From positions 40,578 through 104,577 of the forward strand of contig BDDD01000081.1 of NCBI GenBank assembly GCA_001972305.1: DNA of 64,000 bases, given 5' to 3'. This DNA comes from Cephalotus follicularis. Taxonomy: Eukaryota > Streptophyta > Magnoliopsida > Oxalidales > Cephalotaceae. The notes under the pieces are model-generated. The model was not told the origin of the DNA and ran no database searches. It worked only from the letters and a program-made list of their open reading frames with translations. Position numbers and translations under genes: made by a program. Below are positions 1 to 59,282 of the stretch, one piece after another; within the stretch, counting starts at the first letter, position 1, and the number at the start of each line of letters is the position of its first letter.

Positions 1-43
1 TCCATTCAGTCAATCGATTAAAACATGTCTACACTTACTGTTC

Positions 44-196
44 TAAAGCGTCAACAGTTTCTGTGTAAGCGCCGACGCTTGTTGTCTAAGCGTTGACACT
101 ACACGCATGATCAATGCTTAAGCGTCGACATTATAAGCCTTAACAGGCGTTTTCCACACCAAAGCGTCGACGGTCTTAAATTAAGCGTCGGTGCTT
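44..196. repeat. Palindrome array, type 1 (AAGCGTCGACGCTT), cluster 2 of LTR-W
   Basis: About six or seven sites spaced roughly 15-35 bp apart, for example AAAGCGTCAACAG, TAAGCGCCGACGCTTG, TAAGCGTTGACAC, AAAGCGTCGACGGTC and TAAGCGTCGGTGCTT. The spacers differ from each other. Most departures from the ideal palindrome are C-to-T or G-to-A changes at CpG positions. Confidence 0.8.
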
Positions 197-1126
197 CTGG
201 CGTTCTTACGAATTTCAGGAGCAATATCAAAACAGGGGATGCATAAATTCAACTCAATCTCAGTCCATTTCAACATGCAATCAAATATTAACCATCACTA
301 CACATTATACATTTTATATGTTCAAAAACATGTCAAAACTCCTACCTTTAAAGCAATCCCGAAATCAAATCAAATTGATTTCTCTGTCTATGTCCAAATG
401 TTCTTCACTCTCCTTCAATCTTCCAAAATTACAGAATTAATCTACACAATTGCATGTTTACCGGTTTTAGGTACGAATCCAGTATGTTAGACTAGTTATC
501 TAACCATGACAACATCAAGGAATTGAATCAGAAGCTTATAATTAACTTTTAAGTTCAACTTTCTAATTTCTAACTAATACAACATTCAATCTCCTCTTCC
601 ATGTTTTATCCTTCATAATCATGTTAACAGTGGGTGTGTGGTGCTAACATCAGGGTGTTACAATATTAACGACCTTAACAACATCAAGAAATTTTGGATT
701 ACTTACCAATTCCAGGTGATGCTCCAAGTTCCTCTTTGAACTTCAAGTCCCTTCTACATGCAATCTCAGCCACTGTCCAATTGCTCTCCCTATTACTCAG
801 TGTTTTCTAACACCTATCAGCTCATATATCAGTTGATATAAGTGCTCAATCTCGTGTCTTTCATTCCTAAGTTGGTTTAACTTTTAATGTATATTTCTCT
901 CTCCCTCATGCATGCATTCTCTCTTTGTTTTCTCTTACCCTTTTCTGCTGTGTTTTGCAGGTTGCAGGTTTTTAGGTCACATGCAAGGCTTTATCCTTGC
1001 ATGTTACCCAGCTGGTGAAGGTTTTGGTGTGCATTGACATGTTTACAGGTCACTTAGCTCGCATGGAATCCATTTGGCACCACTGCTCTATTCTAACAGG
1101 CGTGTATCACATTTCTGACACCGCGC

Positions 1127-1251
1127 AAAGCGTCGACGGTTTTCTCTCTGGCGTCGGCGGTTTGTGCGTCATAACTCAGCCTTCAACTGCGCGTTTGTAC
1201 CTGTGTCAGGGCTCAAAGCGTCGACGGTAAGGTGTTAGGCGTCGGCGGTTT
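1127..1251. repeat. Palindrome array, type 1, cluster 1 of LTR-W
   Basis: Four sites: two AAAGCGTCGACGGT and two GGCGTCGGCGGTTT, alternating. The first-second and third-fourth pairs have about the same internal spacing, so the unit is a pair of two half-different palindromes. It lies 150-275 bp from the inferred LTR start. Confidence 0.8.
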
Positions 1252-1400
1252 GGCACCAGAAATTATTTCTTTAGTTTTCCATCTAAGAATTTTATTCCAA
1301 CTTCGTTCTATTCAAAAGGGTAACCAGCATAACATCTCAAAAAGTATATTTTATTCATAGTTGGGTACAAAATACATGAATTGAAATTGTGGTTATTACA

Positions 1401-4255: not shown

Positions 4256-4852
4256 TGAGCTAATCACTACTTGGGACATTTAGAACTTTCTACAATCACT
4301 CTTCCAGTGGCCTGGTTTTCCACAATAATAACAGGCATGGTCCATTATGCACTTTTTCCACAGATCATTCCGAATGGTTTTATCTTGCACTTCTTCCTTT
4401 TATAAAAGGGCTTTACCCTTAGAAGTGGAACCAGATGTTCCATCATGAGTAGGATGAGATACAATAGATGATGACCCAGACTGGCCAGAATCCAACATTA
4501 CAGTCCTCGACTGTATGCCATAGATTTTCTCTAACCGATCGAGCATGGCATATAAATTCTGTAAGTGCAAGACTTGCTTAAGCAAAGGTGGTGGCATGCC
4601 AACAGTTGCTATGCTATGAGCTAGACAATCATCCTCCCACCATTTGACCACACAGGCCATATAGTAGTCAGATACATCATTCATTAGCTCTGGTGGTTTC
4701 TCAATCATAACATATGCAATGTTTAGACTCATGAGAATATTGCGTAGAGTACGCTTCCATTCAGTAAATAGAGGATCTTCAAGCTCAGGAGCATTTTGTG
4801 TGTGTGATTTCATTTTTCTGTCTGCCATTTTGAGTGAGTATATATCTAGCAA
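4256..4852 (-). pseudogene. gag: Copia C2 gag pseudogene with zinc knuckle
   Basis: The minus-strand reading starts at about 4828-4852 and runs 150 codons to a stop at 4400. It resembles the N-terminal Gag domain of copia elements: a W-K-R-T-L-R segment near residue 33, 'VVKWWEDDCLAHSIA' near residue 68, and 'LEKIYGIQSRTVM' near residue 107. After the stop a perfect CCHC zinc knuckle remains at about 4287-4337: C-YY-C-GKPG-H-WKSD-C. Gag forms the particle shell and packages element RNA. The C1 copy at 12543-13170 has the same 'AKWWDD' segment but more stops. The stop at 4400 and the lost linkage to pol make it non-functional. Confidence 0.7.
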
Positions 4853-6951
4853 CCTATAAGAGGAAAACAGAGAAAGAATATTAACAGATTATTCCAATAA
4901 TGTTATTACCATAACCCTTGGTCTTTTGTAATTATGGCTTATTCTCTACTATTCTAATCGTATCTCATACTTCCATATGGAATTCGGGAAGCACCCACCT
5001 TCTAGAGGGGATCAAAATCTATCCCGCATATCATGGTCCCGACTATCGCCGTGCAAACCATAATACTGAATAGGTAGGCATTTAGCATCAATTTGCATTA
5101 GGGCCTCGCCCTTGATATGCAAGATCTGATACAAGTTCGGCCTCACGGACCATACAATCCACAACGGTGGGTTGTGCAAATAGTATGCACCCGGTATAAG
5201 TCATACCCACAATCCTCAAAGAAATAAACTTGTTTTGATCCCCCACAAGTGTGCTTGTTATAGTGCCAAAGCATGGTCATTTCCTTTCAGTGTACCTCAC
5301 ACTGAATTAAACAGTAATGGTCACACGGGGGACCTCTGCAGTTGGCAGTTGTTGTCCCCAATATGTCCACACCCTTCAACAAAGATTATGGAAGGCTAAC
5401 GATGGGACAACCTTATGTCCTACCGCTTATAGACTTATTATTTCATTTTGGAGGAATTTTTGTCTCATACACTTTTATGAATTTTAATTTTAATCATAGC
5501 CGTTAATAAAATTCCATTTTATCTTCCAATCCATTTGGAAACGGCTTAGCATGCTTGGACGTGTTTGAAAAAATTAAAATTAATTCATCCATCTTATGCA
5601 TCCTAAAAGAAAATTTGTCTGACTTGGGACTTTAACTATTAAAGTGACACGTGAGCCAAACGTGATCACTCGGTCTCCTAAGTGTACTTTATTTAATAAC
5701 TATTTTATTACATAATTTTCACCATGCATACATGGCCTTCGCTTGGTCTCGTATTCTTCTTAATCCTCTCTTCAAGCTCCATTGCAAGTCTTCTTAAAAT
5801 TACATTTGTAATAAAAAGAATAAGAATACAATATATTGAGGGAGAAGAGAAATAAAAAATAATAATGGATAAGAAAAATAATGGCGCGTACAGGCAGCTT
5901 TATTACAGAAAAATGAATTCTATAGTAATAAAGAAAATTAAATAACATTCATGTAAGAAACCAAAAATCTAGGTCGAGTCTCAAGTCTACCAGCATGCAC
6001 AAGAAATCCAAAAAATATATTCACTATATATTTAATGAATAAACACGTTAAAATTTAATATTTAATGGCTCGTTGATTTATTTAGCAGCCAAAACGAGAA
6101 ACCACTCCCACTAGATAAATTAAAATCTAGTCACCCTATTTGTAGTTCCATACTACATTCATAGATTAATCCTTCACGTGGATTTATTTGAGTGAAAACT
6201 ATGCAATTAAATATTAGCTACAACTAATATTAATATTCCTCTTTGAATAAAATTGCATAATAAGAAAGAGCTTTGTGTATAAGTGAATTAAATCTCTATC
6301 CGAACACTCTAGTATGTACCTGACCATCCATACAGTGTTGCTGCCAGTAACTGTGCGAAGAATGCACAAAAACTGCAAAAAAAAGCTCGCCAGAAGCTTG
6401 TAGGAAACTTGCCGGTAACTAGCATTAATTGTGCTGAAAATTGTTAGTAAGTGTGCAGAAACTGTCAGTAACTTAGCAGAAACTGCCAGAAACTATGCAA
6501 ACACTTTCTACACTCAAATTGTCATTAACTAGTCCAACTTTCTGTATAAGTTAATTGCCAGAAAATCTGCCCTTAATAGTGCAAAAAATCTGAACAGAAA
6601 GTGTTGCACAAAACCAGTTTTCAAACATAATTTTACGACACTTTCAAACATCCGTTTAATGACTTTTTAAGGTCCGTTCAAAGATCCTAAATCATACATA
6701 CGGATGTTAGAATGTCCCATGCATCATCAACACCCAATGTATTAATCTTTGGATCATCAAACTATCCAATTAATCAATCAATTACACAAGTTCTATCCAT
6801 TGGCAAAATGACCCAAAAAATGTGAGATTCCAAATCACATAATTTTGCCAAATTCACTCTAGGGTTTTGGGACTTAAAATTTCGGCCAAGGTATGGGGTA
6901 CCAAAACAAGCCACTATAAATTGAATTAAGGTCCAATTGAAGTTAATTAGA
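4853..6951 (-). other. Long untranslated leader of copia C2
   Basis: This 2.1-kb region sits between the primer-binding site and gag and has no coding capacity. Its part at about 4950-5800 is an inverted, well-conserved copy of the C1 leader (about 11590-12420), including 'ATGCAAATTGATGCTAAATG' on the minus strand and a CATGCATACATGGCC block. The remainder is AT-rich and C2-specific and includes the CAGAAACT repeats at 6340-6625. Confidence 0.6.
6340..6625. repeat. Degenerate short repeats based on CAGAAACT / CAGTAACT
   Basis: About a dozen loose copies of CAGAAACTG, CAGTAACTT, CCGGTAACT and similar words within 290 bp of the C2 leader, at irregular spacing. They are absent from the C1 leader, so they were gained in C2 or lost in C1. 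Confidence 0.5.
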
Positions 6952-6964
6952 GTCTCTGATACCA
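6952..6964 (-). other. Primer-binding site of copia C2
   Basis: The minus strand reads TGGTATCAGAGAC, complementary to the 3' end of initiator tRNA-Met. It sits next to the inferred LTR end at about 6966, marking the start of minus-strand DNA synthesis for C2. Confidence 0.8.
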
Positions 6965-14584: not shown

Positions 14585-15339
14585 TGTCACACCCCGTTTT
14601 ACAAACAACACTTAAAGTGGTGGCAATTAACATATAAATCCGGCTTATGCAAAACACCATGAAATTAAAACATTTCATATCCATTAACAACTCGCGGAAG
14701 CAGATAAAATAAGCTGAAATATAACGTAACATGCATCCCATACTACATGCTACAACAGTAAACATCATCACGGTTAACTGCCCTCAAATGGTGTGTGAAA
14801 AAAATATTCATTATTACTACCATTCATTTATTACAATGATCCATAAACATTCCTCAAAAGTAAACAACATAAAACTTCACGTTGCTCCTCGGAGCCCAAT
14901 GGTAACAACCGGCTGCATCAACCTGAAACAGACTGAAGTTGTAGGGGGTTAGCCTTTGTCCTCACTCGGCAAAACCATAAAAGCGATCCAGGGTCAAGTA
15001 TAAAACATGTCATGACATGAATGCACAATGATGCAGTACATACTATATCTTGATGCGTATATATATATATATACATATGCCACGACCACAAGGTCGCAGC
15101 CCATGATGTCACCAGAACACATCATCACACTACACGGTCCCCAATATCACAACAGCACAAGTAGCCAACTATGTCTCAGGTCTCTAAGGACCCATCACTC
15201 CACAATAACGATCAGTCACGTCCCAAAGGACAACACTATACTCAATCAGGCATGTCATGGCAGACAATCAATACACTCAATGCAAACAATTGTTCCCGTC
15301 ACTGACACGACGGCGAGGACAACACTCAGAACACACTAC

Positions 15340-15545
15340 GATACAAGCACGACGGCAAGTACCAACACTTCCCCGCTAACGGCAACACTCACGATACTAG
15401 CACGGCGGCTAAGTACCAACATTACCCCGCTAGCGGCAACACTCAATCACAATCAAGACAATAACATCCACGTTACTAGCACGGCGGCTAAGTAACAACA
15501 ATCAATTCACAGTAAATGATACTAGCATGGCAGCTAAGTACCAAC
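15340..15545. repeat. Short repeats GATACTAGCACGGCGGCTAAG and CCGCTAGCGG
   Basis: Four or five copies of a TACTAGCACGGCGGCTAAGTA-like word alternate with CCCCGCTAACGGC / CCCCGCTAGCGGC. The last contains the perfect 10-bp palindrome CCGCTAGCGG. The sister LTR at 19560-19640 keeps only two of the units. Confidence 0.7.
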
Positions 15546-16221
15546 ACTCAACACAATCACGATAACAGTGCAATCACAGCACACACGCAAAACCACTCAA
15601 GTAGTTTATAAAATAAATACTTGATCAAAATATCTCGTTAATGTTTAAAGTATAAATACTTACAACATATTTATATTTGTCAAAATATATATATAGCACT
15701 CCATTTCTCAAGTAAATTATGCTTCATAAAATACTTGCAACAATACATTTTCCTTCAAACATTTCAAGTAATTTATAGATATAAATACTTGCAACATATA
15801 CCTTTCCCGAAAACTCAAGTATCAAAGTAGTTGGAATCATACACTTTCCGTAAAACCCGGTTATTTGAACTATATTCAAATACCTCAAAAATACATATTT
15901 CGTATAACAGTTTCGTAATCTCTTGAAAGCCATTTCGCAATCCTTTTGGAAAATATACTTTTCCAAACAACAATGATTTTAGTAAACCATTCAATTAACC
16001 AAACACATTTTCACATGGTTGTGGAAACCATTTTCACAATCTTTCGAGAATATATATATATATATCTCAAAACGTACATTTCACATAAAGTAATGATTTA
16101 TAGAAATCATGTTTGCACCTCCAAAAGGGGTAAAACGTTTAACAATCATCAATAACCAATTCGAAATACAGTTTATCACAATACGAGATGCACACATATG
16201 CTCACAATGCAAAACAGTCCC

Positions 16222-16655
16222 AACCAGTCGGTTGTTTCTCACTTGGCAGTCGGCTGTCCTTGACCAACAGTCGGCTGCCCTCCTTGGCAGTCAACTGGTC
16301 CCTCACTTAGCAGTCGGTTGCCCTCTCCAGGCAGTCGGCTGGTCCATACACATTCCTTTGTCGCCACTTGTCCCAACATGCCACCTCAGCAAGCCCGGGT
16401 AGAGTGACACGTGGACAGTTGGATGTTACCCAAAATAGTCGGCTGCCCCACCCACAGTCGGCTGCCTTCCTCTGGCAGTCAGCTACTCAATCAACAGGAA
16501 GCAACCTGCAATTCCAGGCACGAATAGTCGACTGACTCCAATGCACAGTCGGCTGGTTTCCATGGGCAGTCGACTGTTCCTCACGAACAGTCGACTGCTG
16601 GCCTCGGACAGTCGGCTGTCCTCCCTGGACAGTCGACTACCCCTGCGGGCAGTGC
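16222..16655. repeat. Palindrome array, type 2 (CAGTCGACTG), cluster 2 of G2 left LTR
   Basis: About 17 sites of CAGTCGACTG or CAGTCGGCTG and variants (CAGTCAACTG, CAGTCGGTTG, TAGTCGGCTG), mostly 20-26 bp apart with unrelated spacers rich in CC, TCC and TGG. It lies 770-1205 bp from the LTR start on the minus strand. Confidence 0.92.
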
Positions 16656-17169
16656 CCCAAAATAGCAGAATTCGACATTCCAATCCACATTTAAACCAAA
16701 CAAACCACAAAGCACTATCACCACAATACCCATTCATGCTTTTATCACAATATAACACATGCATTTCACTCATGATCATCATTATAAATGACTTTGAATC
16801 ACAATCATAGCTTTCCCCTACCTTAGAACTCCAAGTTAAGAGTTGCAATCCACCTCTTTAAGTCCCGGATCCGAGGTCCTTGTACTCCCAAATCCGTCCA
16901 GCATCCTCCACTGGTCCGATTCCTCTACTGGTCCAGGCCTCCAAGTCCACGGTTCAACACCAAGCTCCGTATATCCACAACACACACACTTTCACTCCAT
17001 TTTCTCAACTCCCAAACACTCTTGAATCCACTGAGAAAGATGGAGATTGGAGAAGGGAAGCTTGTGTTTTTATGGAGAAAACCCGGCCCCTCTCCTGCCT
17101 TATGCTCAAATAAACCAAAACTCCCACTTTTGTCACTTTAAGGCTGACAGCACGTGGGCTGTCTGGCGC

Positions 17170-17285
17170 CTGGCAGTCGACTACCATGACTTGGCAGTCG
17201 ACTGTTTCTGCCGACACTCCCACCAGCTGGCTACTTCCTCACGGCAGCTGGCTGCCGCCTTCACCAGGGGAGTCCAGTCGGCTGC
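17170..17285. repeat. Palindrome array, type 2, cluster 1 of G2 left LTR
   Basis: Sites GGCAGTCGACTACC, GGCAGTCGACTGTT and CCAGTCGGCTGCC, with two related CAGCTGGCTG words between them. It lies 143-258 bp from the LTR start. Confidence 0.85.
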
Positions 17286-17428
17286 CCCCTGTACAAAAAC
17301 ACACTAACACACTTTTTCTTGCAACTTTCAACACACCAAAGGGGAAAAACACGATCCTCATTAATTCCACGTGTAAAATTACATTAGAAATGCAACATTA
17401 CACCTTAACGAAAACCCCAGGCGTTACA

Positions 17429-17446
17429 TTCACCCCTCCTTCAAGG
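17429..17446 (-). other. Polypurine tract of G2
   Basis: On the minus strand the sequence CTTGAAGGAGGGGTGAA runs directly into the LTR start TGTAACGCC. Confidence 0.85.
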
Positions 17447-17692
17447 AATTTCGTCCTCGAAATTAAAACAACACCAGGGCAAGTGAGAACAACGCTCTCG
17501 CATTTTCTCTTTCGCCATCCCCCATCTGTCCACGGCCCATAGCCGCGTATGGTTCATTTTTGCTTACAAACTTACAATTCAGACGGTCCGTAAACCCAGA
17601 ACAACTCTGATTGGTAACAACAAGTCACTTACAAAAGCAAAAGAAATCAAACTCATGCTTAAAACAAAAGTAAGGACTTTTACCTCACATGA
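17447..17692 (-). other. G2 spacer between gag and polypurine tract
   Basis: About 250 bp with no coding signal. Protease, RT, RNase H and integrase are absent, so almost the whole pol has been lost or was never present. Confidence 0.7.
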
Positions 17693-18896
17693 TGCCCTTG
17701 CCGGTGTCCCTTCGCTACGAAGGCCCAGCTGCAGCGCCACTATCACCCGCAGATCTTGTGGGTACTGCCATAGAAATCTCTGGACAATCCCTCACCAAGT
17801 GACCAGATGCTCCACATTTCAGACACAACCCTTTCTTTACCCGACAATCTTTCACTTGATGACCAGTACGACCACAGTGGAAACAAACCCCAGACCATAC
17901 ATTACTCACCTGACTAGGAGTTCCTTGGGTGGCAGTCTGCTGAGGTTGATCCTCAGATGATCTGGGCGGGAAATCACTGCGTTGCCATTGTGATAACGCT
18001 GGCCTGAACTGAGTAGGGCCCTGTTGGCTCCGCTGCTTACGAGCCCTTTCAGCACGGTCTTCATTCGAGATGCTCTCTAACAACCTTGCCTTCTGAGCGA
18101 CCTCCACAAAGGTCCCCAGTTCCATAGCCCTGATCCTTGACCAAAGATCCGATCGCAGACCTTTCAAAAACCTCCGTATCTTTTTACCATCATCAGCTAC
18201 CAGATAGGGGGAATGCCTGGCTAGCTCCATAAACCTTGTTGTATACTCCACCACAGTCATTTCTCCTTGACGTAGCTCCAGGAGCTCTGTCTCCCTTCTT
18301 TCTTGCTCAAGTCGGGGCACATAAGCATCGAGGAACTCCTTCCGGAACCCCTCCCAAGTACAACCGAGTCCAGTCGACTCCCACTTTGCCTTGACCATCT
18401 CCCACCAGTGGATGGCCTCACCCTATAGATGGTAGACAACAAACTTTAGTTTCTGGTTATCTGTACAGTTCATCACATCAAAGATCTTTTCTAGATCCTG
18501 CAACCACCTTTCAGCAATGGTAGCATCCAACTCTCCTCTGAAACTGGGTGGACTCTGTCTCATGAACCTTTCAAGGTCCCTCCCAAACTGATTACCGTCA
18601 TCATATGCACCCTGAGCAGGAGCCATGTACTGAGGCTGAGCTTGGGCGTACAGTCGCCGCATCTCCTCCATATTCGCTGCATTAGCAGCCATCTGTTGCT
18701 GATAGGCAGCCATCTGCTGCTGAAAGAAATCAGCGATGCGGTCCAACGGATCTCTCACTCCGGGCGCTGCCCCCGGCACATTCACATTAGCAGCTCCCTG
18801 TGGAACATCATCCATAGGGTCTCCTCCAACATTTATTCCCTCGGGAACATTCTCGTTAACAAACCCACGCATTCCGCGTCTTCTCCGACCGTCCAT
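17693..18896 (-). pseudogene. gag: G2 Gag (capsid plus two zinc knuckles), one internal stop
   Basis: The start Met at 18896 begins MDGRRRRGMRGF. This start is chosen because E1 gag (34419) begins MDGRRRR too. A retrotransposon Gag domain follows, with 'WLQDLEKIFDVMNCTD' near residue 130, 'WEMVKAKWE' and 'GEMTVVEYTTRFMEL'. Then comes a Q/S-rich linker and two CCHC knuckles: C-FHC-GRTGH-QVKDC and C-LKC-GASGH-LVRDC. There is a TAG at 18423-18425 (codon 158) between HL and GEA, and a second TAG just after 'AAAGPS' at about 17715, both explained by CAG to TAG. The E1 gag has TAG at the same internal codon. Gag packages element RNA. As the only coding region in G2, it marks a gag-only, pol-dependent element. 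Confidence 0.9.
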
Positions 18897-19096
18897 CTTG
18901 TTCCTATATGGAAAAGATGTCATTAGTAGTCATCTCAAGGAAACAATTCGTTAATTGCCAAGGAAAATATCAGCTTGGATAAGTTCCTTATTCAATTCAA
19001 GCATACATGGAATATGCTCTATTACCACTATTGTAGTATCAATCATTTTGGTTGCCAAGGATAGTATCCCAGCGATAGCTTATAAAAGGAATATAA
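18897..19096 (-). other. G2 leader between primer-binding site and gag
   Basis: A 200-bp untranslated leader that resembles the E1 leader at 34420-34517 ('ATTAATCGCCAAGGAA' style wording on the plus strand in both). Confidence 0.7.
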
Positions 19097-19108
19097 GCTC
19101 TGATACCA
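19097..19108 (-). other. Primer-binding site of G2
   Basis: The minus strand reads TGGTATCAGAGC, four bases inside the LTR that starts at 19113, complementary to initiator tRNA-Met. Confidence 0.93.
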
Positions 19109-20344
19109 CTGTTGTCACACCCCATTTTACAAACAACACATAAAGTGGTGGCAATTAACATATAAATATGGCTTATGCAAAACACCATGAAATTAAAACT
19201 TTTCATATCCATTAACAACTCGCGGAAGCAGATAAAATAAGCCGAAATATAAAGTAACATGCGTCCCATACTACATGCTACAACAGTAAACATCATCACG
19301 GTTAACTGCCCTCAAATGGTGCGTGAAAAAAATATTTATTATTACAACCATTCATTTATTACAATGATCCATAAACATTCCTCAAAAGTAAACAACATAA
19401 AACTTCACTTTGCTCCTCGGAGCCCAACAGTAACCAACGGCTGCGTCAACTTGAAACACACTGAAGTTGTAGGGGGTTAGCCTTTGTCCTCACTCGGCAA
19501 AACCATAAAAGTGATCCAGGGTCAAGCAACACTCAATCACAATCAATACAATAAAATCCACGTTACTAGCATGGCGGCTAAGTAACAACAATCAATTCAC
19601 AGTAAACGATACTAGCACGACGACTAAGTACCAACACTCAACACAATCACGATAACAGTGCAATCACAGCACACACGCAAAACCACTCAAGTAGTTTATA
19701 AAATAAATACTTGATCAAAACATCTCGTTTCCAAAACGTTTAAAGTATAAATACTTACAACATATATATATTTGTCAAAATATATATATAACACTCCATT
19801 TCCCAAGTAAATTATGCTTCATAAAATACTTGCAACAATACATTTTCCTTCAAATATTTCAAGTAATTTATTGATATAAATACTTGCAACATATATATTT
19901 GTCAAAATATATATAACAATACCTTTCCCGAAAACTCAAGTATCAAAGTACTTGGAATCATACACTTTTCGTAAAACCCGGTTATTTGAACTACATTCAA
20001 ATACCTCAAAAATACGTATTTCGTATAACAGTTTCGCAATCTCTTGAAAGCCATTTCGCAATCCCTTTGGAAAACATACTTTTCCAAACAACAATGATTT
20101 TTAGTAAACCATTCAATTAACCAAACACATTTTCACAAGGTTGTGGAAGCCATTTTCACAATCTTTCGAGAATATATATATATATCTCAAAACGTACATT
20201 TCACATAAAGTAATTATTTATAGAAATCATGTTTGCACCTCCAAAAGGGGTAAAACGTTTCACAATCATCAATAACCAATTCGAAATACAGTTTATCACA
20301 ATACGAGATGCACACATAAGCTCACAATGCAAAACAGTCCCAAC

Positions 20345-20795
20345 CAGTCGGCTGCCCTTAACCTACAGTTGACTGCCCTCCTTGGCAGTCGGGTGTCCTT
20401 GACCAACAGTCGGCTGCCCTCCTTGGCAGTCGACTGGTCCCTCACTTAGCAGTCGGCTGCCCTCTCCAGGCAGTCGGCTGGTCCATACACATTCCTTTGT
20501 CGCCACTTGTCCCAACATGCCACCTCAGCAAGCCCGGGTAGAGTGACACGTGGACGGTCGGCTGTTACCCAAAACAGTCGACTGCCCCACCCACAGTCGG
20601 CTGCCTTCCTCTGGCAGTCGGCTACTCAATCAACAGGAAGCAACCTGCAATTCCAGGCACGAACAGTCGACTGGCTCCAATGCACAGTCGACTGGTTTCC
20701 ATGGGCAATCAGTTGTTCCTCATGAACAGTCGACTGCTGGCCTCGGACAGTCGGCTGTCCTCCCTGGACAGTCGACTGCCCCTGTGGGCAGTGCC
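20345..20795. repeat. Palindrome array, type 2, cluster 2 of G2 right LTR
   Basis: About 18-19 CAGTCGACTG/CAGTCGGCTG sites. Compared with the left LTR several sites differ by A/G at the central position or by C/T at the CpG (CAGTCGACTG here, CAGTCGGCTG there, and the reverse), so the two states interchange by point mutation. Confidence 0.92.
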
Positions 20796-21312
20796 CAAAA
20801 ACAACAGAAATCACACATTCCAATCCACATTTAAACCAAACAAACCACAAAGCACTATCACCACAATACCCATTCATGCTTTTATCACAATATAACACAT
20901 GCATTCCACTCATGAACATCATTATAAATAACTTTGAATCGCAATCATAGCTTTCCCCTACCTTAGAACTCCAAGTTAGGAGTTGCAATCCACCTCTTTA
21001 AGTCCCGGATCCGAGGTCCTTGCACTCCCAAATCCGTCCAGCAGCCTCCACTGGTCTGATTCCTCCACTGGTCCAGGCCTCCAAGTCCACGGTTCAACAC
21101 CAAGCTCCGTATATCCATAACACACACACTTTCACTCCATTTTCTCAACTCCCAAACACTCTTGAATCCACTGAGAAAGATGGATATTGGAGAAGGGAAG
21201 CTTGTGTTTTTATGGAGAAAACCCGGCCCCTCTCCTCCCTTATGCTCAAATAAACCAAAACTCCCACTTTTGTCACTTTAAGGCTAACAGCACATGGGCT
21301 GTCTGGCGCCTG

Positions 21313-21447
21313 GCAGTCGGCTGCCATGACTTGGCAGTCGACTGTTTCTGCCGACACTCCAACCAGCCAGCTGCTTCCTCACAGCAGCTGGCTGCCGCCT
21401 TCACCAGGGGAGTCTAGTCGGCTGCCTCCCTGTGGCAGTCGGCTGCC
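21313..21447. repeat. Palindrome array, type 2, cluster 1 of G2 right LTR
   Basis: Sites GGCAGTCGGCTGCC, GGCAGTCGACTGTT, CTAGTCGGCTGCC and GGCAGTCGGCTGCC, plus CAGCTGGCTG-like words. It lies 142-276 bp from the LTR start. Confidence 0.87.
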
Positions 21448-21589
21448 CCCTGTACAAAAACACACTAACACACTTTTTCTTGCAACTTTCAACACACCAA
21501 AGGGGAAAAACATGATCCTCATTAATTGCACGTGTAAAATTACATTAGAAATGCAACGTTACACCTTAACAAAAACCCGGGGCGTTACA

Positions 21590-26008: not shown

Positions 26009-26346
26009 GGTCGACGTATCCCATCTAAGTGAAATCGTTCAAAACAGTGGTTTAAGCGTCGACGTTTAACACTTGGCATCGACACTTATGTCCTTTAAGT
26101 GTTGACGCTTTTCCCTTAGCGTCAGCGCTTAGTCCAGAAGCCTTATGCTTCAGTACTTGTCTTTGGCGTCGACACTCAAGGCATTGACAACCTCACGCGT
26201 CAACGCCTAAAATCATTCATTCCCTCGTTCAAAGCCCAAGGCGTCGACACTTTTCCATTGAGCATCGACGGTTTTTGACGAAACCAGTATCCATTTCCGG
26301 CATAACAATCCGTAGCATCGACGCTTTCCTTTAATCGTCGACTGTT
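26009..26346. repeat. Palindrome array, type 1, cluster 2 of E1 left LTR
   Basis: About 15 sites such as TTAAGCGTCGACGTTTAA, TTGGCATCGACACTTA, TTAAGTGTTGACGCTTTT, TTAGCGTCAGCGCTTA, TTGGCGTCGACACTCAA and AAGGCGTCGACACTTTT. It lies 1040-1377 bp from the LTR start. Confidence 0.88.
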
Positions 26347-27095: not shown

Positions 27096-27231
27096 AAGCG
27101 TCGACGCTTCCTTCTAAGCGTCAGTGCTTATATCGTTTTACTCATAATCGTTGATTTTGAGTGTGAGTTTTACGCGCGCATTTGTATTCCTTGGCATCGA
27201 CACTTTGCTCTCAGGCATCGACGCTTAAGGC
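27096..27231. repeat. Palindrome array, type 1, cluster 1 of E1 left LTR
   Basis: Four sites: TAAGCGTCGACGCTTC (intact palindrome), TAAGCGTCAGTGCTTA, TTGGCATCGACACTTT and AGGCATCGACGCTTAA. It lies 155-290 bp from the LTR start. Confidence 0.88.
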
Positions 27232-31323: not shown

Positions 31324-31409
31324 TAAAGCGTCGATGCCTAAGTAGTTAAAATGCGCGCTTAATTCAAACACATAAGCGTCGACGCCTGCATGTAAACGTC
31401 GACGCTTTG
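31324..31409. repeat. Palindrome array, type 1, cluster 1 of LTR-C
   Basis: Three sites: AAAGCGTCGATGCCTAA, TAAGCGTCGACGCCTG and AAACGTCGACGCTTTG. It lies 192-277 bp from the LTR start. Confidence 0.87.
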
Positions 31410-32187
31410 CAGCGTGTTCTGCATACACACAAACAGCAGATGGACGTGTCGCATGGAGGTGAGTTGTGCCGCTTAACCGGCACTTGGGCAGGCTCTCTAG
31501 AAATTTGGCATGCATGCTCTTGATGCCAGACTTACCTGCAACAAAAAGGCATTGAACAGAGAGATAATCTCTGAATGCATGGCCTGTGGAGTAGAAGAAT
31601 GCAGCACCTATTGCACTTGGCTTGCATGAAGGAGAGGGGCTGAACTAGTGGGTTTTGGCAGAGAGAAACAAAAACGTTCCTGCATAAAACTCAGTCCTCA
31701 CCTCTTACCTTTGGTTGTTACTGATAAAGAAAGTACCTGAGACTTGAGAGAAACACAGAGAGTGAAAGAAGGCAGAGGGTTAAGAGAGGAAGCTCAAACT
31801 ACCATTATTGAGCAAGTGGAAGTTGGAGCTTGGACAGCAACTATTGGAACGAACCTGAGAGCTTCAAGCAGTATCTGGGAGCTCAAAGTAACCTGTTGGA
31901 TACTAAAAGAGGTAGACTTTCGGCTTCTAACTTGAGGCCAGAGGTAGGGGAAGCCATACTTGTATTTTGTGTTCAATATTTGTGTTTGTCCAGTGATACT
32001 TATGCATAAATTGCATGGCCTGTTGAACTATTTTTAATCACTGAAATGATGTTATGTTGTACTGGATGTGTAATGTGATGTTTCATGTCGGTCTTCTGGG
32101 CTTTATACATGTTGGATTACATGTTATTATGGTGAAATTGTTACTGTTTGGTCACGTCATGAGGAAGAAGACGACTGCTGCTTGAAA

Positions 32188-32294
32188 CCATCAACGCCTT
32201 TGGTAAGCGTCGACGCTTTGTGCGATGAACTGCGTTTTATTTACTAAATGCGTTCGAAATGTCGACGCCTAAGTAAAAAACGTCGATGCTTTAG
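32188..32294. repeat. Palindrome array, type 1, cluster 2 of LTR-C
   Basis: Four sites: CATCAACGCCTTT, TAAGCGTCGACGCTTTG (intact palindrome), AATGTCGACGCCTAAG and AACGTCGATGCTTTA. It lies 1056-1162 bp from the LTR start. Confidence 0.87.
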
Positions 32295-38199: not shown

Positions 38200-38761
38200 C
38201 CTAGGCGCACAATCCCGCCCCCAACGCTCAATGACAACTCCGTCGCGGGGCCAACGCAGCATCAATCCAATCACAACCATTAATCAATCCAAAGTCAATC
38301 CATTTTCCAAGTAGTTATAAGTTATAAATTACTTGAAACAATACATTTTCAAATGTATAACAATCCTTAAAACAGTTTTCAATATTTTGGAAACCATTTT
38401 TCAATCGTTCAAAAACATACATTTCGTGGAAAATAATAATTTCATTTTTAAATCATGAATGCACTTCCAAAATGATAAAACATTTTAGAAATCATATACA
38501 ATCCAATTCTCAGTTCAATCCATAACAATTATACAACGCAAACATATGCTCAAATGCATCTAAACTCATTTCGAGGTTAACGTATCCCATCTAAGCGAAA
38601 TCGTTCAAAACAATGGTTTAAGCGTCGACGTTTAAGACTTGGCGTTAACACTTATGTGCTTTAAGCATCGACGATTTTCCCTTAGCGTCATCGCTTAGAT
38701 CAGAAGCCTTATGCTTTAGTACTTGTCTTTGGCGTCAACGCCTAAGGCATGGACCCTTAAG
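38200..38761 (-). mobile_element. E1 gypsy element, 5' LTR, second piece
   Basis: It continues the LTR after solo LTR-D and matches 8395-8505 joined to 25748-26200. This is the uninterrupted form of the C1 target site. It is cut at 38761 by element A. The far part of the LTR, including cluster 1, is missing. Confidence 0.9.
38617..38756. repeat. Palindrome array, type 1, cluster 2 of E1 right LTR (partial)
   Basis: Sites such as TTAAGCGTCGACGTTTAA, TTAAGCATCGACGATTTT, TTAGCGTCATCGCTTA and TTGGCGTCAACGCCTAA. They pair one to one with sites at 26053-26190 and differ by CpG transitions. Confidence 0.87.
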
Positions 38762-38897
38762 TGTAATATCCCGATTCATTGCGTATGTGTCTATCTAATT
38801 GTGATTTTTGTTTGTTGAGGATTGTTATATGTTATGCATTATTTCGTTAGACCGTTTGATTTTTTTTGTTAACTTTTTTATTTTTATGTTATGTGTG

Positions 38898-38984
38898 ATA
38901 AGCGTTGACACTTTTGCCATGAACATCGACGCTTTGTATGAAAGGAGTTAAGCGTCGCTGCTTTCTCGTGACCTTCGATGCTTT
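38898..38984. repeat. Palindrome array, type 1, cluster 1 of LTR-A
   Basis: Four sites: TAAGCGTTGACACTTTT, GAACATCGACGCTTTG, TTAAGCGTCGCTGCTTTC and ACCTTCGATGCTTTAA. Confidence 0.87.
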
Positions 38985-39539
38985 AAACCATTTTCCTTAT
39001 TTGTCTGTGGAGGGTGCGGTCGGTGGCTTAGTTAGGAAAGTGGGATTCTTGCTATAATACGAATATTTGTTTCCCTATTGTGTTAGTCGAGTTATCTGTA
39101 TGTAAGGAAAGCTTTTAATCAACGCATTTTGCCATAAAAAATCTACATTTTTCATCCTTTTAAAACACTGTCACCTGCATTCTTTACAAACCAACAGAAG
39201 CCATTCATTTGTCATTCTTCTCAGCATATTTTCACATCATCTAAAGGTATGTTATGATAATGATTTTAATTCCGTTTTAGATTATTGTTTTGTTGAATAG
39301 AAAGTTATTAGATTGTTCAAAACTCTGTTGTTAATCCATGAAAACTATTCTAAATCATGTAATCTTAGAAACCATATTTTGAAAAGTTCTTTTGTTATAT
39401 TCAACATGAAATCCATATGTCTATGCGTTTGAATTATTATACTGATGTTTTCAAAAAGAGAAGTCATGTTTTAGAACCTATATACCACTGTTTTATGATT
39501 TACATATAGAAACTGGATTTTTGTTCATGATTACAACTG

Positions 39540-39842
39540 ATACATCGACGCGTTTTTCATGTTTTTAACCCAAAGCGCCGACGCCTATGTCGTATACGTC
39601 GACGCCTATGCATAGAAAAATTATTTTTATCGTCTTGCATGTATTTAAGCGTCGACTGTCTTTGTTTCTTGTCGACGCCTTAGTCAAAACCGTCAACGCT
39701 TTGTTGTGAGCGTCGACGCTTATGTCGTGAAACATCATGTTTTTGTCGACGCTTTGTCATGCGCTTTTGTCTACGATTTGTTTTAAACGTCAACGCCATG
39801 TCTTAAGCGTAGACGCTTTTGTCGTGACTGTTGACGCTTTCC
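39540..39842. repeat. Palindrome array, type 1, cluster 2 of LTR-A
   Basis: About 12 sites in 300 bp, including AAAGCGCCGACGCCTATG, TACGTCGACGCCTATG, TAAGCGTCGACTGTC, GAGCGTCGACGCTTATG and TAAGCGTAGACGCTTTT. The sibling LTR-B has CAGTCGACTG-type sites at the matching place. Confidence 0.9.
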
Positions 39843-41115
39843 CCTGGAATTTTGTAATCATCGCCTGTTAAGTTGTAACACGAATTGATTTGTCTGTTTA
39901 GGGTTTCATAACACCTGTGGTGGAGATTATGGTGATTCTGTTTGTGCTTTGAGTAATTCTTGGGATTGTTTAGGTTTGAACGGTTAAGGTACGGATTCTT
40001 CGTCTTTGATTATCATCCTTTGATATGGTTTGAATAAAATTAAGTTTTTTATTTTTACGAAGAAAGTTGAATATTTTTTACTTTACAAATGCAGTTTTAA
40101 TTTGTATAAATGAAATACTGATTTCACTATTATCATCACTTTTAATTAATTGTGAAATTAAATGAGTTTGATTTTTGATTATGAAAGTATGTGTGACTTT
40201 TATCTATGCAAATATGAATTTACTACTATCCTTTGATAACGATTTTGGATTGGTTCGGAAAACCATATAAATGTTTTGAATTAATTTTTGAATGAAATTA
40301 TATTTTGAAATTTTGACATACTGAGTTGTACCCACCTATGGAAGGTTCCATAGGCATGTCCTTTAGCACGGAGGCATGACACTATCCGTGGTGGTGTGAT
40401 CAGTCCACGGCATCTCTTATGTTATGATATCCTTTGTGGAGGATTATGGATCCGATATGTGGTCACCTAAGTGTGACGTTTATGATAGAGGCGTATGGGT
40501 CGGCCCTAGGAAAATTATTTTATGTTATGAGAATTGATTGTGTAGTGCCGTACACGTCATTCTATCTGGCATGTGGACGTCGCGAATCCCTTGCATATGT
40601 GTTTCTGATATGTTTAGCTATATATATATTTCTGATGCTCAGTATGGAACATTATGTTTTGAAAGGTATTGATTGATTTTATACGAAAATTTTGATGTAC
40701 TTTATAAAAGAGTATTTAACCGTTTATGTCATGAGATTTCTATTTTGAATTTTTTAATTTTAATATTTTTTAAATTAACGTTTACCGCTTTTATATTCTA
40801 TATCCGTACTAAGATTTGCTTAACCACGTTTTTGTTTTCCATGCAGTAGATTATCAGGAGCATCCGGGGCAAGTGTGATTAGAGATCTACCCTTATGTCT
40901 GAGGATCACTTAGGACTTGGTCCCGTGAATTTTAGTTGTTTTATGGTCGTATGTAGACCGGTGTTATTGACAATAATATATTTGAACTTATGTTAATTAT
41001 TATGTGATTTCAGTTTTCGAACCACCACGTTATTGAATAAAAGATGGTTTATGTTTTGATAAGTTTGTAAGTTTGTCCTGTGAACACTCCCAACCAATAG
41101 GGGTGTTACAGATTA

Positions 41116-42657: not shown

Positions 42658-42977
42658 TGGCGTTGATGCGTACAGTTTAGGCGTTGACGCGTAAAGTCTT
42701 AGCATTGACACTTTGCGCTAGGTGTCGACAGTGAAGGCTTTGTGCCTTAGGCGTTGACGCATGCGCTAAGCATCAACTACTCATAACACATAAGGCGTCA
42801 ACGATTAAGCCGAAAGCGTTGACGCTTATGCCCCTTTTTCCCTTACTCCGTTAACGCATCATGCTAGTTAGCACGTGAATGCAAAGAAACATATATGGCG
42901 TCAATGCATAGCCAAGGCGTCGACGCTCTGGGCACTCAAGAACACATCAACACGCACGAAGAACACGTTGACGCCCT
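42658..42977. repeat. Palindrome array, type 1, of LTR-F
   Basis: About 13 sites: GGCGTTGATGCGTA, GGCGTTGACGCGTAA, TAGCATTGACACTTTG, GGTGTCGACAGTG, AAGCGTTGACGCTTATG, AAGGCGTCGACGCTCTG and others. Nearly all differ from AAGCGTCGACGCTT or GGCGTCGACGCC by CpG transitions, so this array is more decayed. One lone GCCGTTGACGCTTTG lies at about 43950. Confidence 0.88.
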
Positions 42978-55853: not shown

Positions 55854-55879
55854 GACCCCAGAATCTCAGGACGAGATTC

Positions 55880-55897
55880 TTTTAAGAGTGAGAGGAT
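55880..55897 (+). other. Polypurine tract of G3
   Basis: TTAAGAGTGAGAGGAT runs directly into TGTAATACCC. Confidence 0.85.
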
Positions 55898-56542
55898 TGT
55901 AATACCCAGAATTTTTGTAAATAAAAATATACGTATAAATGTACAGTATTTTAAGGAATGATATTTCGGGCCAAAAATGTATTGTTATTGGACTGGAAGT
56001 GAATTAATAAAGAAATGGCTTTTATTTGGGCTTTAAATGTGTTACTATTATTGGGCCCAAAATGTGACAATTGGAGGATGAATAAGGAGACCTTGGGCCT
56101 CCTTTCTCACGTCACCCGACCTAAGAAAGGGAACTTCTCTTGTATTTATAAAAGAAAAGGGAAAGAGTGAGGACGACCGTTGTTGGAAAAAGGGAGAGAA
56201 AATAGACAAAAAAGGGGCTACTATCTGGAGACTTCTTGTTTTTCTCTTTCTCACTCCCATTAAATCCCCCTCATTCCCATCTTCGAAGAGGATTTTCCTG
56301 AGAGCAAGGAAAGAACCAGTGGAGAAAGGAGCCCAGTGCTAACAAGGTGCAATTAAAGAAATTATACCGGGCAAAGGGAGGAGAAGCGCTGTAAATCTTG
56401 CCAATTTAAGGTAGGATCTCCTACCAGTACTCCTAGTAATCTGAATTTATATGCCATGCTACTTTTATCATGGGATGAATGTAAAAATGTGTATAAATGT
56501 CCCCTAGTACATTATGCTAAGCGTTAGTACATTATGCATCCT
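55898..56542 (+). mobile_element. G3 gypsy element, 3' LTR, first 645 bp
   Basis: It starts TGTAATACCCAGAATT after the polypurine tract and is cut at 56542 by element B. The rest is not seen in the window. It includes a GAGAGAAAA-rich part near 56190-56330. No coding. Confidence 0.85.
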
Positions 56543-59282
56543 TGTAATACCCTGATTACCTGTACGTATTTTTCTTACGGGTTTTATCTGTTTCGTTTAA
56601 GTATTTGTATGTTTTACGTTGGGTTTATGTTTTTGGGCTGACTGATACCAGCCTTAGTTTTGGGCATGTTAGTATGGGCATTTTGTTGGGTAAATTTAGT
56701 CACATTATTATTATTACTACAAACCAATTTATAGATACATAATTATTATCTTATATTTACAATTGATTTTATTAATTGTATTTTCAAAATTTGTTTTTTT
56801 TTTAAATAAAATCTTTTATCTTAATTACTTTCCTTCTCCCTCTCAAACACTCTCTCCCCGTATCCCTCTCTTTCCAATCTCCCTCTCCCGCACAACTCTA
56901 TCTCTTTCCTTCTTCTCACCCTGAAAATCTGCCTACATTCCTTATCTAACAGATTGGTTTTTCCTTTTCTTTCTATCCTTTCCCGTTTTGGTTTCTTTTG
57001 CTATATATGTGAGATAATGCCATTGAATTGGCCATCTCTTTCTGTGTGTTGCAACTGGCGAATTTGCTGAGCAATTGGGGCTGTGATTTCTGTGTTTACA
57101 TACTCCATTGATATGTTAGTTTCATCAAGGTTCAATTCGGTAAATGTTTCATTGATATTGCATGGCACTGTCAAAACTTTGAGTGTGTATTTCTCTCTTT
57201 TGATTATGTCGAACATCTGTGTTCTTCTTCAATTTGTGTCGCCATTGCAGGTTAGTTTGTTTCCCTACTGTGATGGTTATGTGTTTGTGTTCTCAAGGAA
57301 TTGTTTTGTATAAGTTGCTAGAGAAGGAGTAGTTTTGATTTCTACCTTCCTGTTTTTCTGTCAAAAATAAATCCTGTGTTTGTGGCAATCTGTAGACACC
57401 TAGGGAGTGTTATATATTCTGGTTTTGATGCATGTGATCATCATAAACGGACAGAATTGGAGCTATGCAATTGTATGTCATGGTTTAAGTTTTTCTGTCA
57501 CATTAAATAATTTTCTGTCAATAGGTCTCTGTCAAATTCAGTGTTATAACATGGTTTTACATGCCATACAAAGTTGTTTTTAATGTTGGTAATCTTCTAG
57601 TATTGAAAAATCCGAGTTTTGGCAACTAGATTGCACAAAACTGCATTAAACTACTGTTTTGTCACTAAGAACAGTCGACTGCCCATATGAACAGTCGGCT
57701 GTCTAGTTTAAGTAGTCGTCTGTCTTATACAAACAGTCGACTATCTTGTGTTGAGTAGTCGGCTGGACCCCTGATTCAGTCGACCGCTTGCATGTCCAGG
57801 TTGCGTAGTCGACTGGCCCTGTTGTGTAGTCGACTGCCACCCCTTGATTAGTCGACTGGATTCTTGAAACAGTCGGCTGGTTTGTCCTGTAACTTTTTGT
57901 TTTCATCCATTTGTTCTTCCAATGATCCGGGTCTATTTTAAATATCAATATGAATCTGTTTTATGCCCAAAAAGAATTTTAGACCCTTATTTGAATATTG
58001 TTATGTTGAATAGATTATTGTGCTACGTGAAGCAAATTAAATTTACCGGATATTCGTAAGTTAGTCTGTGATCGCATAAGGTACGGATCTTCGTTCCTTG
58101 ATACACTCTTACTGATTCAGTTCAGTTTTGAGAATAAATACGGATTCTTTGTTTTGGTTATTATTCAGTTTTATGAATATGTCCCTTCCAGATTATGAAC
58201 TCCGTTATATTTGGATTTTGAAATAAAGTCAGTTAATATTTTATTGAATATATTTTCTGGCTTAATGAACTCCGCTATGTTATGTTTACGAAATGCTATG
58301 CAAATGTCTCTTTATTGTGAAAATAAAAGAGTTGCATTTTGATTATGAAAGTATATGTGAAAATATATCGTTTGAGAATGATTTATGATTATGTTTTGGG
58401 AAACCTTCTACGTGATTTAATTGATTTGATGAAATCAAAGCTTTTTGAAATGGTGAAATACTGAGCTTTTATAACCACCTATGGGGGTACCATAGACATG
58501 CTGTGAGCCTGGCACGGGGGCATGAAACTTTCCGTAACGGTGTGATTAGTTTACGGTGTCTCTCTGGGATATCCTTGGATAGGATTTGTGATAGAGGTGT
58601 ATGGATCGATCCTAGTTATATGTTTTGGGATATGTTATGTTATAGGAATTGTATGTATAGTGCCGTATACTGCACTTCTTATGGCAATGTGGATGTCGCG
58701 AATCCCTTGCTATTATGTGATTCTGATATGTTATGGGTTTTGGTGCTCAGTTATGGAACCTATGTTTTGGGAAGGTATGCTTTATGGTTTCAAGTTATGA
58801 ACTTGGTTTATATGTTTTACCGTGGGCATTTATAAAGTATGTTTAAACTATTTTACTGCCTAAGATTTCTGCTTTAAATTACTTTTGAAATCTTCTTGCT
58901 TTAAAATATCGTTTACTGTTTTACATTCTATATTCATACTGAGGTTTGCTCAGCCGCGTTTTTGTTTCCATGCGGCAGGTTATCAGGAGCGACGGGGCCA
59001 TGTGTGATGAGAGTGACTCCCATATGTTTGAGGATCATCTAGGAGCTGATCCCTTTGTGTTTATGTGGTCATAGTGGGACCCGTTTGATAAACAATATGT
59101 TAATTTCTTTTTTTTGACTTTTGGATTATGAATAAGTTTCAGTTATTATCAGTTTCAGTATGTTTTGGATATGCTTTAAACCATCACGTTTTTAATAAAG
59201 ATGAACTTTTCTAGTAAGATATGTTATGCTAAGTTTCTTTATTATGCACCTGTGGCGACTCCCATAGCTCGGGGGTGTTACA
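56543..59282 (+). mobile_element. Element B, gypsy 5' LTR (2740 bp)
   Basis: It runs from TGTAATACCCTGATT to CGGGGGTGTTACA, inserted in the G3 LTR. It is homologous to LTR-A, with the same block order. It carries a CAGTCGACTG-type array at 57669-57882 (1127-1340 bp from the start), where LTR-A has AAGCGTCGACGCTT sites. I see no cluster 1 near 140-290 bp. A CTATATATG TATA-like word lies near 57001. Confidence 0.92.
57669..57882. repeat. Palindrome array, type 2, of LTR-B
   Basis: Ten sites about 20-25 bp apart: ACAGTCGACTGCC, ACAGTCGGCTGTC, GTAGTCGTCTGTC, ACAGTCGACTATC, GTAGTCGGCTGG, TCAGTCGACCGC, GTAGTCGACTGGCC, GTAGTCGACTGCC, TTAGTCGACTGG and ACAGTCGGCTGG. Confidence 0.92.

Follow-up and report, generated by a model that had tools for sequence, protein, structure and literature searches.

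LTR retrotransposons of the window and their arrays

Here we report an analysis of palindromic word arrays in one window of one genome, a stretch of 64,000 nucleotides of contig BDDD01000081.1 from Cephalotus follicularis. Arrays of GTCGAC-centred palindromic words were confirmed in seven gypsy or gypsy-like LTR types, designated W, E, G, C, A, B and F, where E3/E5 and G3/G5 denote the 3'/5' LTR copies of E and G. Pfam recognises protease, RT-like pieces, Integrase_H2C2 and SH3_Tf2-1 in gypsy order in E, gag, RVP_2 and RVT_1 in B, and gag only in G and A; C is grouped with gypsy through LTR similarity, and W and F are provisionally counted as gypsy-like. The SH3_Tf2-1 match of E comes from one ORF at the end of pol, in which Pfam recognises no chromodomain. 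The gypsy elements here may belong to the Tekay/Del lineage, and element D, used as a control, is tentatively labelled copia; 10 ORF pieces around D-type sequence had no Pfam match. The G insertion (14585-21589) is complete and flanked on both sides by the TSD GGATC, and among those of its longer ORFs that were given to Pfam, gag alone is recognised. The features are as follows.

46..196, minus strand: LTR-W cluster 2, 6 type-A sites (1205-1355 in LTR sense)
1128..1250, minus strand: LTR-W cluster 1, 4 type-A sites (151-273 in LTR sense; LTR start 1400)
16225..16639, minus strand: LTR-G 3' copy cluster 2, 14 type-B sites
17174..17284, minus strand: LTR-G 3' copy cluster 1, 3 type-B sites; the 5' copy has one more 21-bp unit
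17429..19112, minus strand: G internal region, gag with CCHC zinc knuckles; PBS at 19108
20345..20778, minus strand: LTR-G 5' copy cluster 2, 16 type-B sites
21314..21445, minus strand: LTR-G 5' copy cluster 1, 4 type-B sites (LTR 21589-19113)
26054..26346, minus strand: LTR-E 3' copy cluster 2, 10 type-A sites
27096..27226, minus strand: LTR-E 3' copy (called E1 earlier) cluster 1, 4 type-A sites (LTR start 27386)
31326..31407, plus strand: solo LTR-C cluster 1, 3 type-A sites (LTR 31132-33631)
32186..32291, plus strand: solo LTR-C cluster 2, 4 type-A sites
38620..38758, minus strand: LTR-E 5' copy, remnant of cluster 2, 5 sites at 10/14 or better; LTR-A, inserted at 38762, cuts the cluster
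38900..38983, plus strand: LTR-A cluster 1, 4 type-A sites (LTR 38762-41110)
39540..39839, plus strand: LTR-A cluster 2, 10 type-A sites
42660..42969, minus strand: LTR-F cluster, 6 scored type-A sites (42679-42928) and weaker ones (LTR start 44398)
57672..57879, plus strand: LTR-B cluster 2, 10 type-B sites, 19-23 bp in 8/9 gaps (LTR 56543-59282)
60107..61416, minus strand: solo LTR of Sirevirus-like build within gag of element B; TG..CA, TSD GAAGC, C-rich 3' end
60734..61299, minus strand: third array, 18 sites scored against AAGACGTCGACGTCTT

A bipartite layout recurs at matching positions in five LTRs (W, E3, G5, C and A): counted from the LTR start, cluster 1 falls within 139-291 and cluster 2 within 779-1355. 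These figures agree with those of an earlier note on this DNA, which had placed the clusters at about 135-290 and 770-1377, and its descriptions of LTR-B as having cluster 2 only (1130-1337) and of LTR-F as shifted (a single weak site at 436, then a cluster at 1471-1720) are borne out; several sites of the LTR-F cluster have the form GTTGAC/GTCAAC. The overall site numbers given earlier also hold, except that cluster 1 has 3-4 sites rather than about four. TATA-like CATAAAA words, read by eye only, lie in four LTRs, with cluster 2 downstream of them. In the third array, the commonest full form, AAGACATCGACGTCTT, alternates with a one-sided form, and 11/17 gaps measure 19-23 bp. About 90 bp separate the end of this array from a TATA box near 60641 (LTR position 778), and a second TATAAA lies inside the array at LTR position 562.

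Enrichment, motif types and spacing of the sites

The whole window contains 26 matches of AAGCGTCGACGCTT with at most two mismatches and 40 matches of CAGTCGACTG with at most one, for which 10 first-order Markov shuffles gave means of 0.0 and 0.9. Comparison with shuffled sequence had been set beforehand as a check, and in the array LTRs the sites, scored at 11/14 or better for type A and 8/10 or better for type B, lie far above the mean of 100 dinucleotide shuffles. The observed count and shuffle mean are 9/0.02 in W, 12/0.05 in E3, 3/0.01 in E5, 6/0.08 in C, 9/0.02 in A and 5/0.03 in F for type A, and 20/0.59 in G5, 17/0.69 in G3 and 10/0.47 in B for type B. The control D LTR has 0 type-A and 2 type-B sites (0.70 expected), and there are no sites in the control LTR H3 (645 bp, 5' part only) of the gypsy element H or in Zend, an uninformative 426-bp fragment holding only an LTR 3' end.

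Each LTR uses one of two main types, with consensus centres GCGTCGACGC and CAGTCGACTG, and the opposite type never rises above the maximum of 100 dinucleotide shuffles (type A, 0 in G5, G3 and B; type B, 0-2 in W, E3, E5, C, A and F). The exclusivity of two motif types claimed earlier is thus upheld against shuffles, but a third type had been missed, and two sites (E3 1041 and A 886) are hybrids with half of each type. The third-type word has 1-2 matches in W, E3, C, A and F, exceeding the shuffle maximum of 1 in C and F, as expected because the TCGA core is common to the types; all three have this TCGA centre and a palindromic consensus. Nearest relatives differ in type: the LTRs of E (type A) and G (type B) align before and after cluster 2, those of A (type A) and B (type B) only downstream of it. 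Each of the two gypsy lineages contains both main types.

A generic palindrome count that assumes no motif was rejected as the main test, being weak in A and B, where it showed no rise over 200 shuffles, and raised in the 12-mers of control D (27 near-palindromic against 11.6 expected, an assortment of partly AT-rich words, a few of them duplicated, that form no array). The observed count was reached by 0/200 shuffles only for G5, G3 and C, and was raised weakly or on one of two measures in W, E3, E5 and F. Perfect 10-bp palindromes are absent from the third array (1.33 expected), which has 11 near-palindromic 12-mers (6.4 expected), and control H3 has 3 perfect palindromes (0.71 expected). 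The signal therefore lies in the recurrence of a word whose consensus is palindromic; the individual sites need not be exact palindromes.

Adjacent gaps of 19-23 bp make up 45 of the 69 counted (random mean 11.3, maximum 24 in 5000 placements), and their distribution has a sharp mode at 20-21 bp, which the earlier range of 15-30 bp, itself correct, had overlooked. The second copies E5 and G3 were excluded from spacing and identity counts; the E3 match at 698 (AAGCTTGGAAGCTT) was dropped before both, and the singleton of F at 436 and the late matches of the solo LTR at 764, 1052 and 1195 before the gap count. Helical phasing was rejected as a proven rule: Rayleigh R is 0.69 at 10.5 bp, yet 0.61 at 15 bp and 0.67 at 25 bp, because a single gap size dominates, and the 23 gaps above 24 bp are not significantly phased at 10.5 bp (R 0.30, p about 0.13). 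The claim is restricted to the excess of 19-23 bp gaps, a spacing mode without proof of helical phasing.

Within arrays, the identity of sites is 0.67-0.90 and that of the 6-nt flanks 0.24-0.41, against 0.26-0.40 expected from composition. A slight residual similarity remains in the left flanks of A and B (0.41 in each, expected 0.31 and 0.30); the spacers, whose alignment would have spoken for one ancestral tandem repeat, are thus at most slightly similar beyond composition, in keeping with the earlier description of them as unrelated. Between the two LTRs of an insertion, with G and E pooled, differences affect 37/275 positions in sites, 14/249 in spacers and 197/3185 in the rest, so that decay after insertion was faster in sites than in spacers. 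Sites that are mutation-prone, and yet alone clearly conserved between units, point to selection having kept them in active copies. Half-site mismatches are unequal between left and right in W (19 vs 5) and G5 (14 vs 3); orientation asymmetry is present in W, G5 and A, and units keep their orientation in W and G5. The left/right asymmetry in W and G5 indicates that units multiplied by duplication, and hence that the sites are not all independent. TRF reports periods in the arrays of, for example, 20-22, 41 and 70 bp, and the G copies differ by gain or loss of one 21-bp unit.

Comparison with known systems

The closest known system is the RM boxes of Sireviruses (Bousios et al. 2010, PMC2829016), nearer than VANC and unnamed in the earlier note. 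Sirevirus (Ty1/copia) LTRs carry palindromic RM boxes that precede the TATA box and have flanks that diverge; according to the same text, RM is absent from classic copia, and Tnd-1 is without the CGG-CCG signature (PMC2829016). The arrays described here resemble RM boxes as high-copy palindromic LTR words with divergent flanks, single sites often not being palindromic, and share the TCGA centre with the RM motifs of Vitis (CGGTCGACCG) and Tnd-1 (ACAATCGATTGT) (PMC2829016). They differ in being carried by Ty3/gypsy elements, which sets them outside RM by carrier, in mostly adding a cluster on the downstream side of the presumed promoter, and in the centres GCGTCGACGC and CAGTCGACTG, without the CGG-CCG signature. 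The spacing mode of the gypsy arrays is 21 bp, and the available text of PMC2829016 gives no RM spacing figure for comparison and makes no mention of RM boxes in gypsy elements. The solo LTR at 60107-61416 has the Sirevirus features of an RM-like array followed by a TATA box and a run of C near the 3' end; the CGG-CCG signature is absent from it.

In Arabidopsis VANDAL transposons, VANC targets are dense motifs of the same orientation in noncoding DNA including introns; these motifs evolve as tandem repeats form and are not the same in related VANDALs (Hosaka et al. 2017, PMC5735166, available text). The arrays here are similarly noncoding, tandem-duplicating and of changing type between relatives (PMC5735166); they differ in that VANDAL elements encode the binder, none being recognised here, and in that the VANC21 motif YAGTATTAY is non-palindromic (PMC5735166). 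Del/Tekay elements are alike in having gypsy LTRs, many 2-3 kb long, whose variable 5' region has been proposed to have a link with silencing by the host (Cruz et al. 2014, PMC4029996). They differ in that the study found no CpG islands in eudicot Del elements; words in 'palindrom-' are absent from the available text (PMC4029996). Other TE families with palindromic or repeated cis-regulatory arrays are summarised in PMC10760457, and excerpts of further sources describe a weak insertion preference for palindromes (PMC6911290), tandem repeats and antisense ORFs in Retand elements (PMC11963269), and VANC and RdDM (PMC10398659). Among the titles and abstract beginnings listed from the open PMC subset, none reported palindrome arrays in the LTRs of plant gypsy elements. 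A pattern search of viral contigs gave 2 pattern stretches and no relative, a search of plasmids found no arrays, and two array patterns searched matched 4 and 0 records.

Candidate explanations of the arrays

Our best explanation, to which we give about an even chance, is that the arrays are cis-regulatory platforms for a dimeric factor acting in trans. A dimeric, sequence-specific factor would dock on each palindromic word, and the spacing of about 21 bp would put neighbouring dimers on the same helix face, where they could cooperate. As read from the sequence, cluster 1 would lie upstream within the LTR, before the presumed core promoter, and cluster 2 downstream, past a donor-like GTAGG/GTATG word, a position suggesting that cluster 2 may be part of a leader intron. 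The factor would be supplied in trans, most likely by the host, and its effect would most likely be activation or protection of the LTR promoter. Since types A and B are each found in the two gypsy lineages, a shared host factor is at least as likely as an element-encoded one. Selection for binding by a dimeric factor, as proposed earlier, remains the best reading, the palindromes exceeding shuffles and the spacers not aligning; the element-encoded factor suggested alongside it was not recognised among the ORFs given to Pfam.

It is unlikely, in our estimate, that the arrays serve a VANC-like anti-silencing system, in which a protein encoded by an autonomous relative would bind that relative's array, remove silencing marks and mobilise only family members, the motif type marking which factor an element answers to. 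The orientation, tandem growth and type change of VANC motifs in VANDALs (PMC5735166, available text) find parallels in the orientation kept in W and G5 and the differing types of nearest relatives, and the earlier analogy with VANC is apt for the array architecture. It is weaker on the binder, which the earlier note did not see in the window: 30 ORF slots (29 distinct ORFs, 4400-4888 entering twice) gave in Pfam only families of retroelement type (gag, capsid, PNMA, zinc knuckle, protease, RT, RNase H, integrase and SH3_Tf2-1) or nothing, with gag only in G, so that no element-encoded binder was recognised among them. This search compared the larger ORFs with Pfam families rather than with VANC itself, and several elements are incomplete. 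Both types in both lineages would also require two element factors, shared or arisen twice. Improbable too is a function in RNA, whereby sites pair with one another in the transcript and the resulting hairpins serve RNA dimerisation, packaging or the production of small RNAs. Ten of 13 arrays fold at z about -2.9 to -7.4 against 60 shuffles (four control stretches, -1.3 to +1.0), and palindrome regions of maize Sireviruses are reported small-RNA hotspots in the available text of PMC5311732 and PMC10760457. However, cluster 1 of W, C and A does not fold (z -0.2 to -1.4), part of the folding follows from the palindromic words themselves, and the mismatches run against pairing: G-U would be expected over C-A, and 69 C-A stand against 44 G-U (p 0.024), or 52 against 35 with G5 and B left out.

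A neutral minisatellite, in which 21-bp units expanded by slippage and are now decaying, their palindromic form being accidental, would account for the 21-bp unit gained or lost between G copies, the orientation asymmetry in W, G5 and A and the TRF periods. We disfavour it as quite improbable: the sites decay faster than the spacers and yet are the clearly conserved part, the TCGA centre and palindromic consensus recur in three types, and the positions recur in five LTRs. Very improbable, finally, are host silencer sites, words at which the host targets methylation and which elements keep through overlap with a needed function. CG and CHG cytosines are abundant in the type-B sites, and the per-context rates of C/T differences in the type-B sites of G are indistinguishable from the rest of the LTR; a purely harmful site, however, should be lost by selection, and arrays are kept in seven LTR types.

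Beyond the dimeric-factor reading lies a bolder and unlikely proposal, that two superfamilies converged on the code of one dimeric-factor family, in which the TCGA centre is constant, the arms vary and specify the address, and sites are spaced two helical turns apart. Elements would switch address when they rewrite their arrays, a view suggested by the pairs E/G and A/B. If so, the types would represent a host-factor or anti-silencing 'frequency' among which elements hop, and the palindromic cis-arrays of copia Sireviruses would be common to more than one superfamily. The two types at matching places in near relatives would then be a natural test of factor switching, which may bring escape from silencing or gain of activation. 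The motif strings together with the spacing rule make a candidate binder directly searchable.

Two-cluster arrays in the gypsy LTRs

The window holds 49 GTCGAC words, and the counts of the two main palindromic words, type A (AAGCGTCGACGCTT) and type B (CAGTCGACTG), lie far over shuffled expectation, both window-wide and per named LTR. Scored against shuffles, each named gypsy LTR carries one of the two types. The LTRs, from elements whose lineage we take to be Tekay/Del, have limits set by self-comparison, by their end words and primer sites, and by reading the sequence:

From 1400, minus strand: LTR-W
27386 to 25740, then beyond a nested element to ~7664 by similarity (7643 in the scripts), minus strand: LTR-E, 3' copy (E3)
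38761 to 38200 and 35289 to 34534, minus strand: LTR-E, 5' copy
21589-19113 and 17428-14585, minus strand: the LTR-G copies
31132-33631, plus strand: solo LTR-C
38762-41110, plus strand: LTR-A
56543-59282, plus strand: LTR-B
From 44398, far end uncertain, minus strand: LTR-F

In W, E, G, C and A, a first cluster of 3-4 sites lies 139-291 bp from the LTR start and a second of 4-16 sites at 779-1355 bp; LTR-B has cluster 2 only, and LTR-F has one cluster at a shifted position. An earlier note had described this layout with its two exceptions and the single motif type per LTR, and all of these hold.

Between the clusters, reading by eye revealed CATAAAA-like words near 550 in E3 and C and near 372 in G5 (the 5' copy of LTR-G) and A, with none clear in W, as well as donor-like GTAGG or GTATG words (G5 ~628, E3 810, C 811, W 1056, A 485, F ~1066). 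These words would place cluster 1 in promoter DNA upstream and cluster 2 in the leader, perhaps in an intron. A leader intron within the LTR is possible, with the donor-like word (~485-1066 in LTR sense) ahead of cluster 2 and acceptor-like words downstream. Acceptor-like words were seen close to the LTR end when W, E, G, C, A and F were considered, e.g. TTTCCATGCAG in A.

Spacing and a third array

Adjacent gaps in the gypsy clusters measure 19-23 bp in 45 of 69 cases, while random placement within the same extents gave 11.3 such gaps on average and at most 24 (5000 trials). The commonest gap is exactly 21 bp, at 27 of the 68 that do not exceed 100 bp. This spacing would correspond to two helical turns, which a periodogram of the gypsy gaps cannot by itself single out. 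Another LTR element has a degenerate 21-bp repeat around GCAGAAACTGYCAGTAACT at 6345-6500, which lies upstream of a PBS-like minus-strand site at 6964.

A third word, likewise centred on TCGA, is arrayed in a further LTR:

60107-61416, minus strand: solo LTR of Sirevirus-like build, 1310 bp, TG..CA, TSD GAAGC, interrupting the gag of gypsy element B

Against AAGACGTCGACGTCTT, 18 sites score 10 of 16 or higher and 14 of them 12 or higher; the common form AAGACATCGACGTCTT alternates with a one-sided AAGACATCGATCCCTT, and no third-array site is a perfect 10-bp palindrome. Gaps of 19-23 bp make up 11 of 17. A TATA box follows ~90 bp past the array and the 3' end is C-rich, a build that PMC2829016 gives for Sirevirus LTRs; on its LTR features this is a candidate Sirevirus. 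The gypsy and Sirevirus-like arrays have the TCGA centre in common with each other and with two published eudicot Sirevirus motifs, those of Vitis and Tnd-1 (PMC2829016).

The pol ORF of element B contains a 144-bp direct duplication (94%) at 63095-63451. Element D is presumably copia.

Selection, duplication and the level of recognition

If the arrays were one ancestral tandem repeat, spacers should align as sites do. Sites within an array are 0.67-0.90 identical. For the 6-nt flanks on each side identity is 0.24-0.41, where their composition predicts 0.26-0.40, and the excess is biggest on the left in A (0.41 vs 0.31) and B (0.41 vs 0.30). The claim of non-conserved spacers is thus borne out, with this slight excess. 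The two LTRs of one insertion, assumed identical at insertion, differ more in sites than in spacers (G: sites 19/190, spacers 7/192, rest 78/2022; E: 18/85, 7/57, 119/1163; sites vs spacers pooled, p 0.003). In G, rates per cytosine context inside and outside sites do not differ significantly (CG 5/39 vs 23/111, CHG 12/83 vs 9/119, CHH 0/4 vs 25/678), so the site excess fits cytosine-rich composition; in E, the CHH rate is raised in sites (7/26 vs 38/346, p 0.026), with CG at 6/21 vs 21/55 and CHG at 0/1 vs 11/50. Since the faster-decaying part is the part conserved between units, maintenance of the sites calls for selection acting on the multiplying copies. Array units multiply through duplication as well: the left and right half-sites carry unequal numbers of mismatches in W (19/5), G5 (14/3) and A (25/14), and the G copies differ by one 21-bp unit. 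In E3 (16/20), C (6/7), F (6/10) and B (5/6) the imbalance is smaller or absent.

The arrays could instead act as RNA, with sites pairing in the transcript, and for 10 of 13 arrays the predicted RNA fold beats that of shuffles (z of -2.9 or below). Within sites, however, C-A mismatches outnumber G-U (69 vs 44), the opposite of selection for RNA pairs. Recognition of the words at the DNA level is the reading that we prefer.

Motif types among relatives and the source of a putative factor

Nearest relatives carry different types. E and G share two gag pieces at 72% identity and two further at 45% and 52%, and their LTRs align both ahead of cluster 2 (E3 767-877 with G5 584-696) and past it (E3 1401-1541 with G5 1266-1401); the cluster in between is type A in E and type B in G. 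In the second pair, with type A in A and type B in B, gag pieces are 67% and 83% identical. Apart from one out-of-order match of 39 bp, the alignment of these LTRs is confined to the region past cluster 2 (A 1385-2163 with B 1769-2511), which makes for a looser positional match. Between the pairs, gag pieces reach 40-55% over 20-50 residues, and pol pieces of B and E 29-70%. The gag of element H is 32-46% identical to both pairs, and the part of its LTR that is present has no array.

Recombination, or an ancestor carrying both types, may lie behind these differences. The sole match between LTR-B and G5 is 65 bp, weak and over sites (67.7%, E 3e-4), so array transfer together with flanks was not seen in this comparison. 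Hybrid sites, with a type-A-like and a type-B-like half, occur at 26333-26346 (AACAGTCGACGATT, E sense) and 39647-39660 (AAGCGTCGACTGTC, A sense) and could be chance or type-switch intermediates.

One short gypsy insertion is complete:

14585-21589, minus strand: G insertion, with TSD GGATC, both LTRs and PBS

Its 1.7-kb interior has six ORFs of 61-118 aa besides those given to Pfam; among the latter, a gag with CCHC knuckles and nothing else was recognised. A second ORF is a similar gag start, and one antisense ORF has no Pfam match. G thus resembles a gag-bearing, non-autonomous element. Since gag is its sole recognised product, the dimeric factor proposed in the earlier note would most likely be supplied in trans. 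Such a factor may be encoded by elements; in the one window to which the array results apply, a host origin would be attractive because two gypsy lineages have both motif types.
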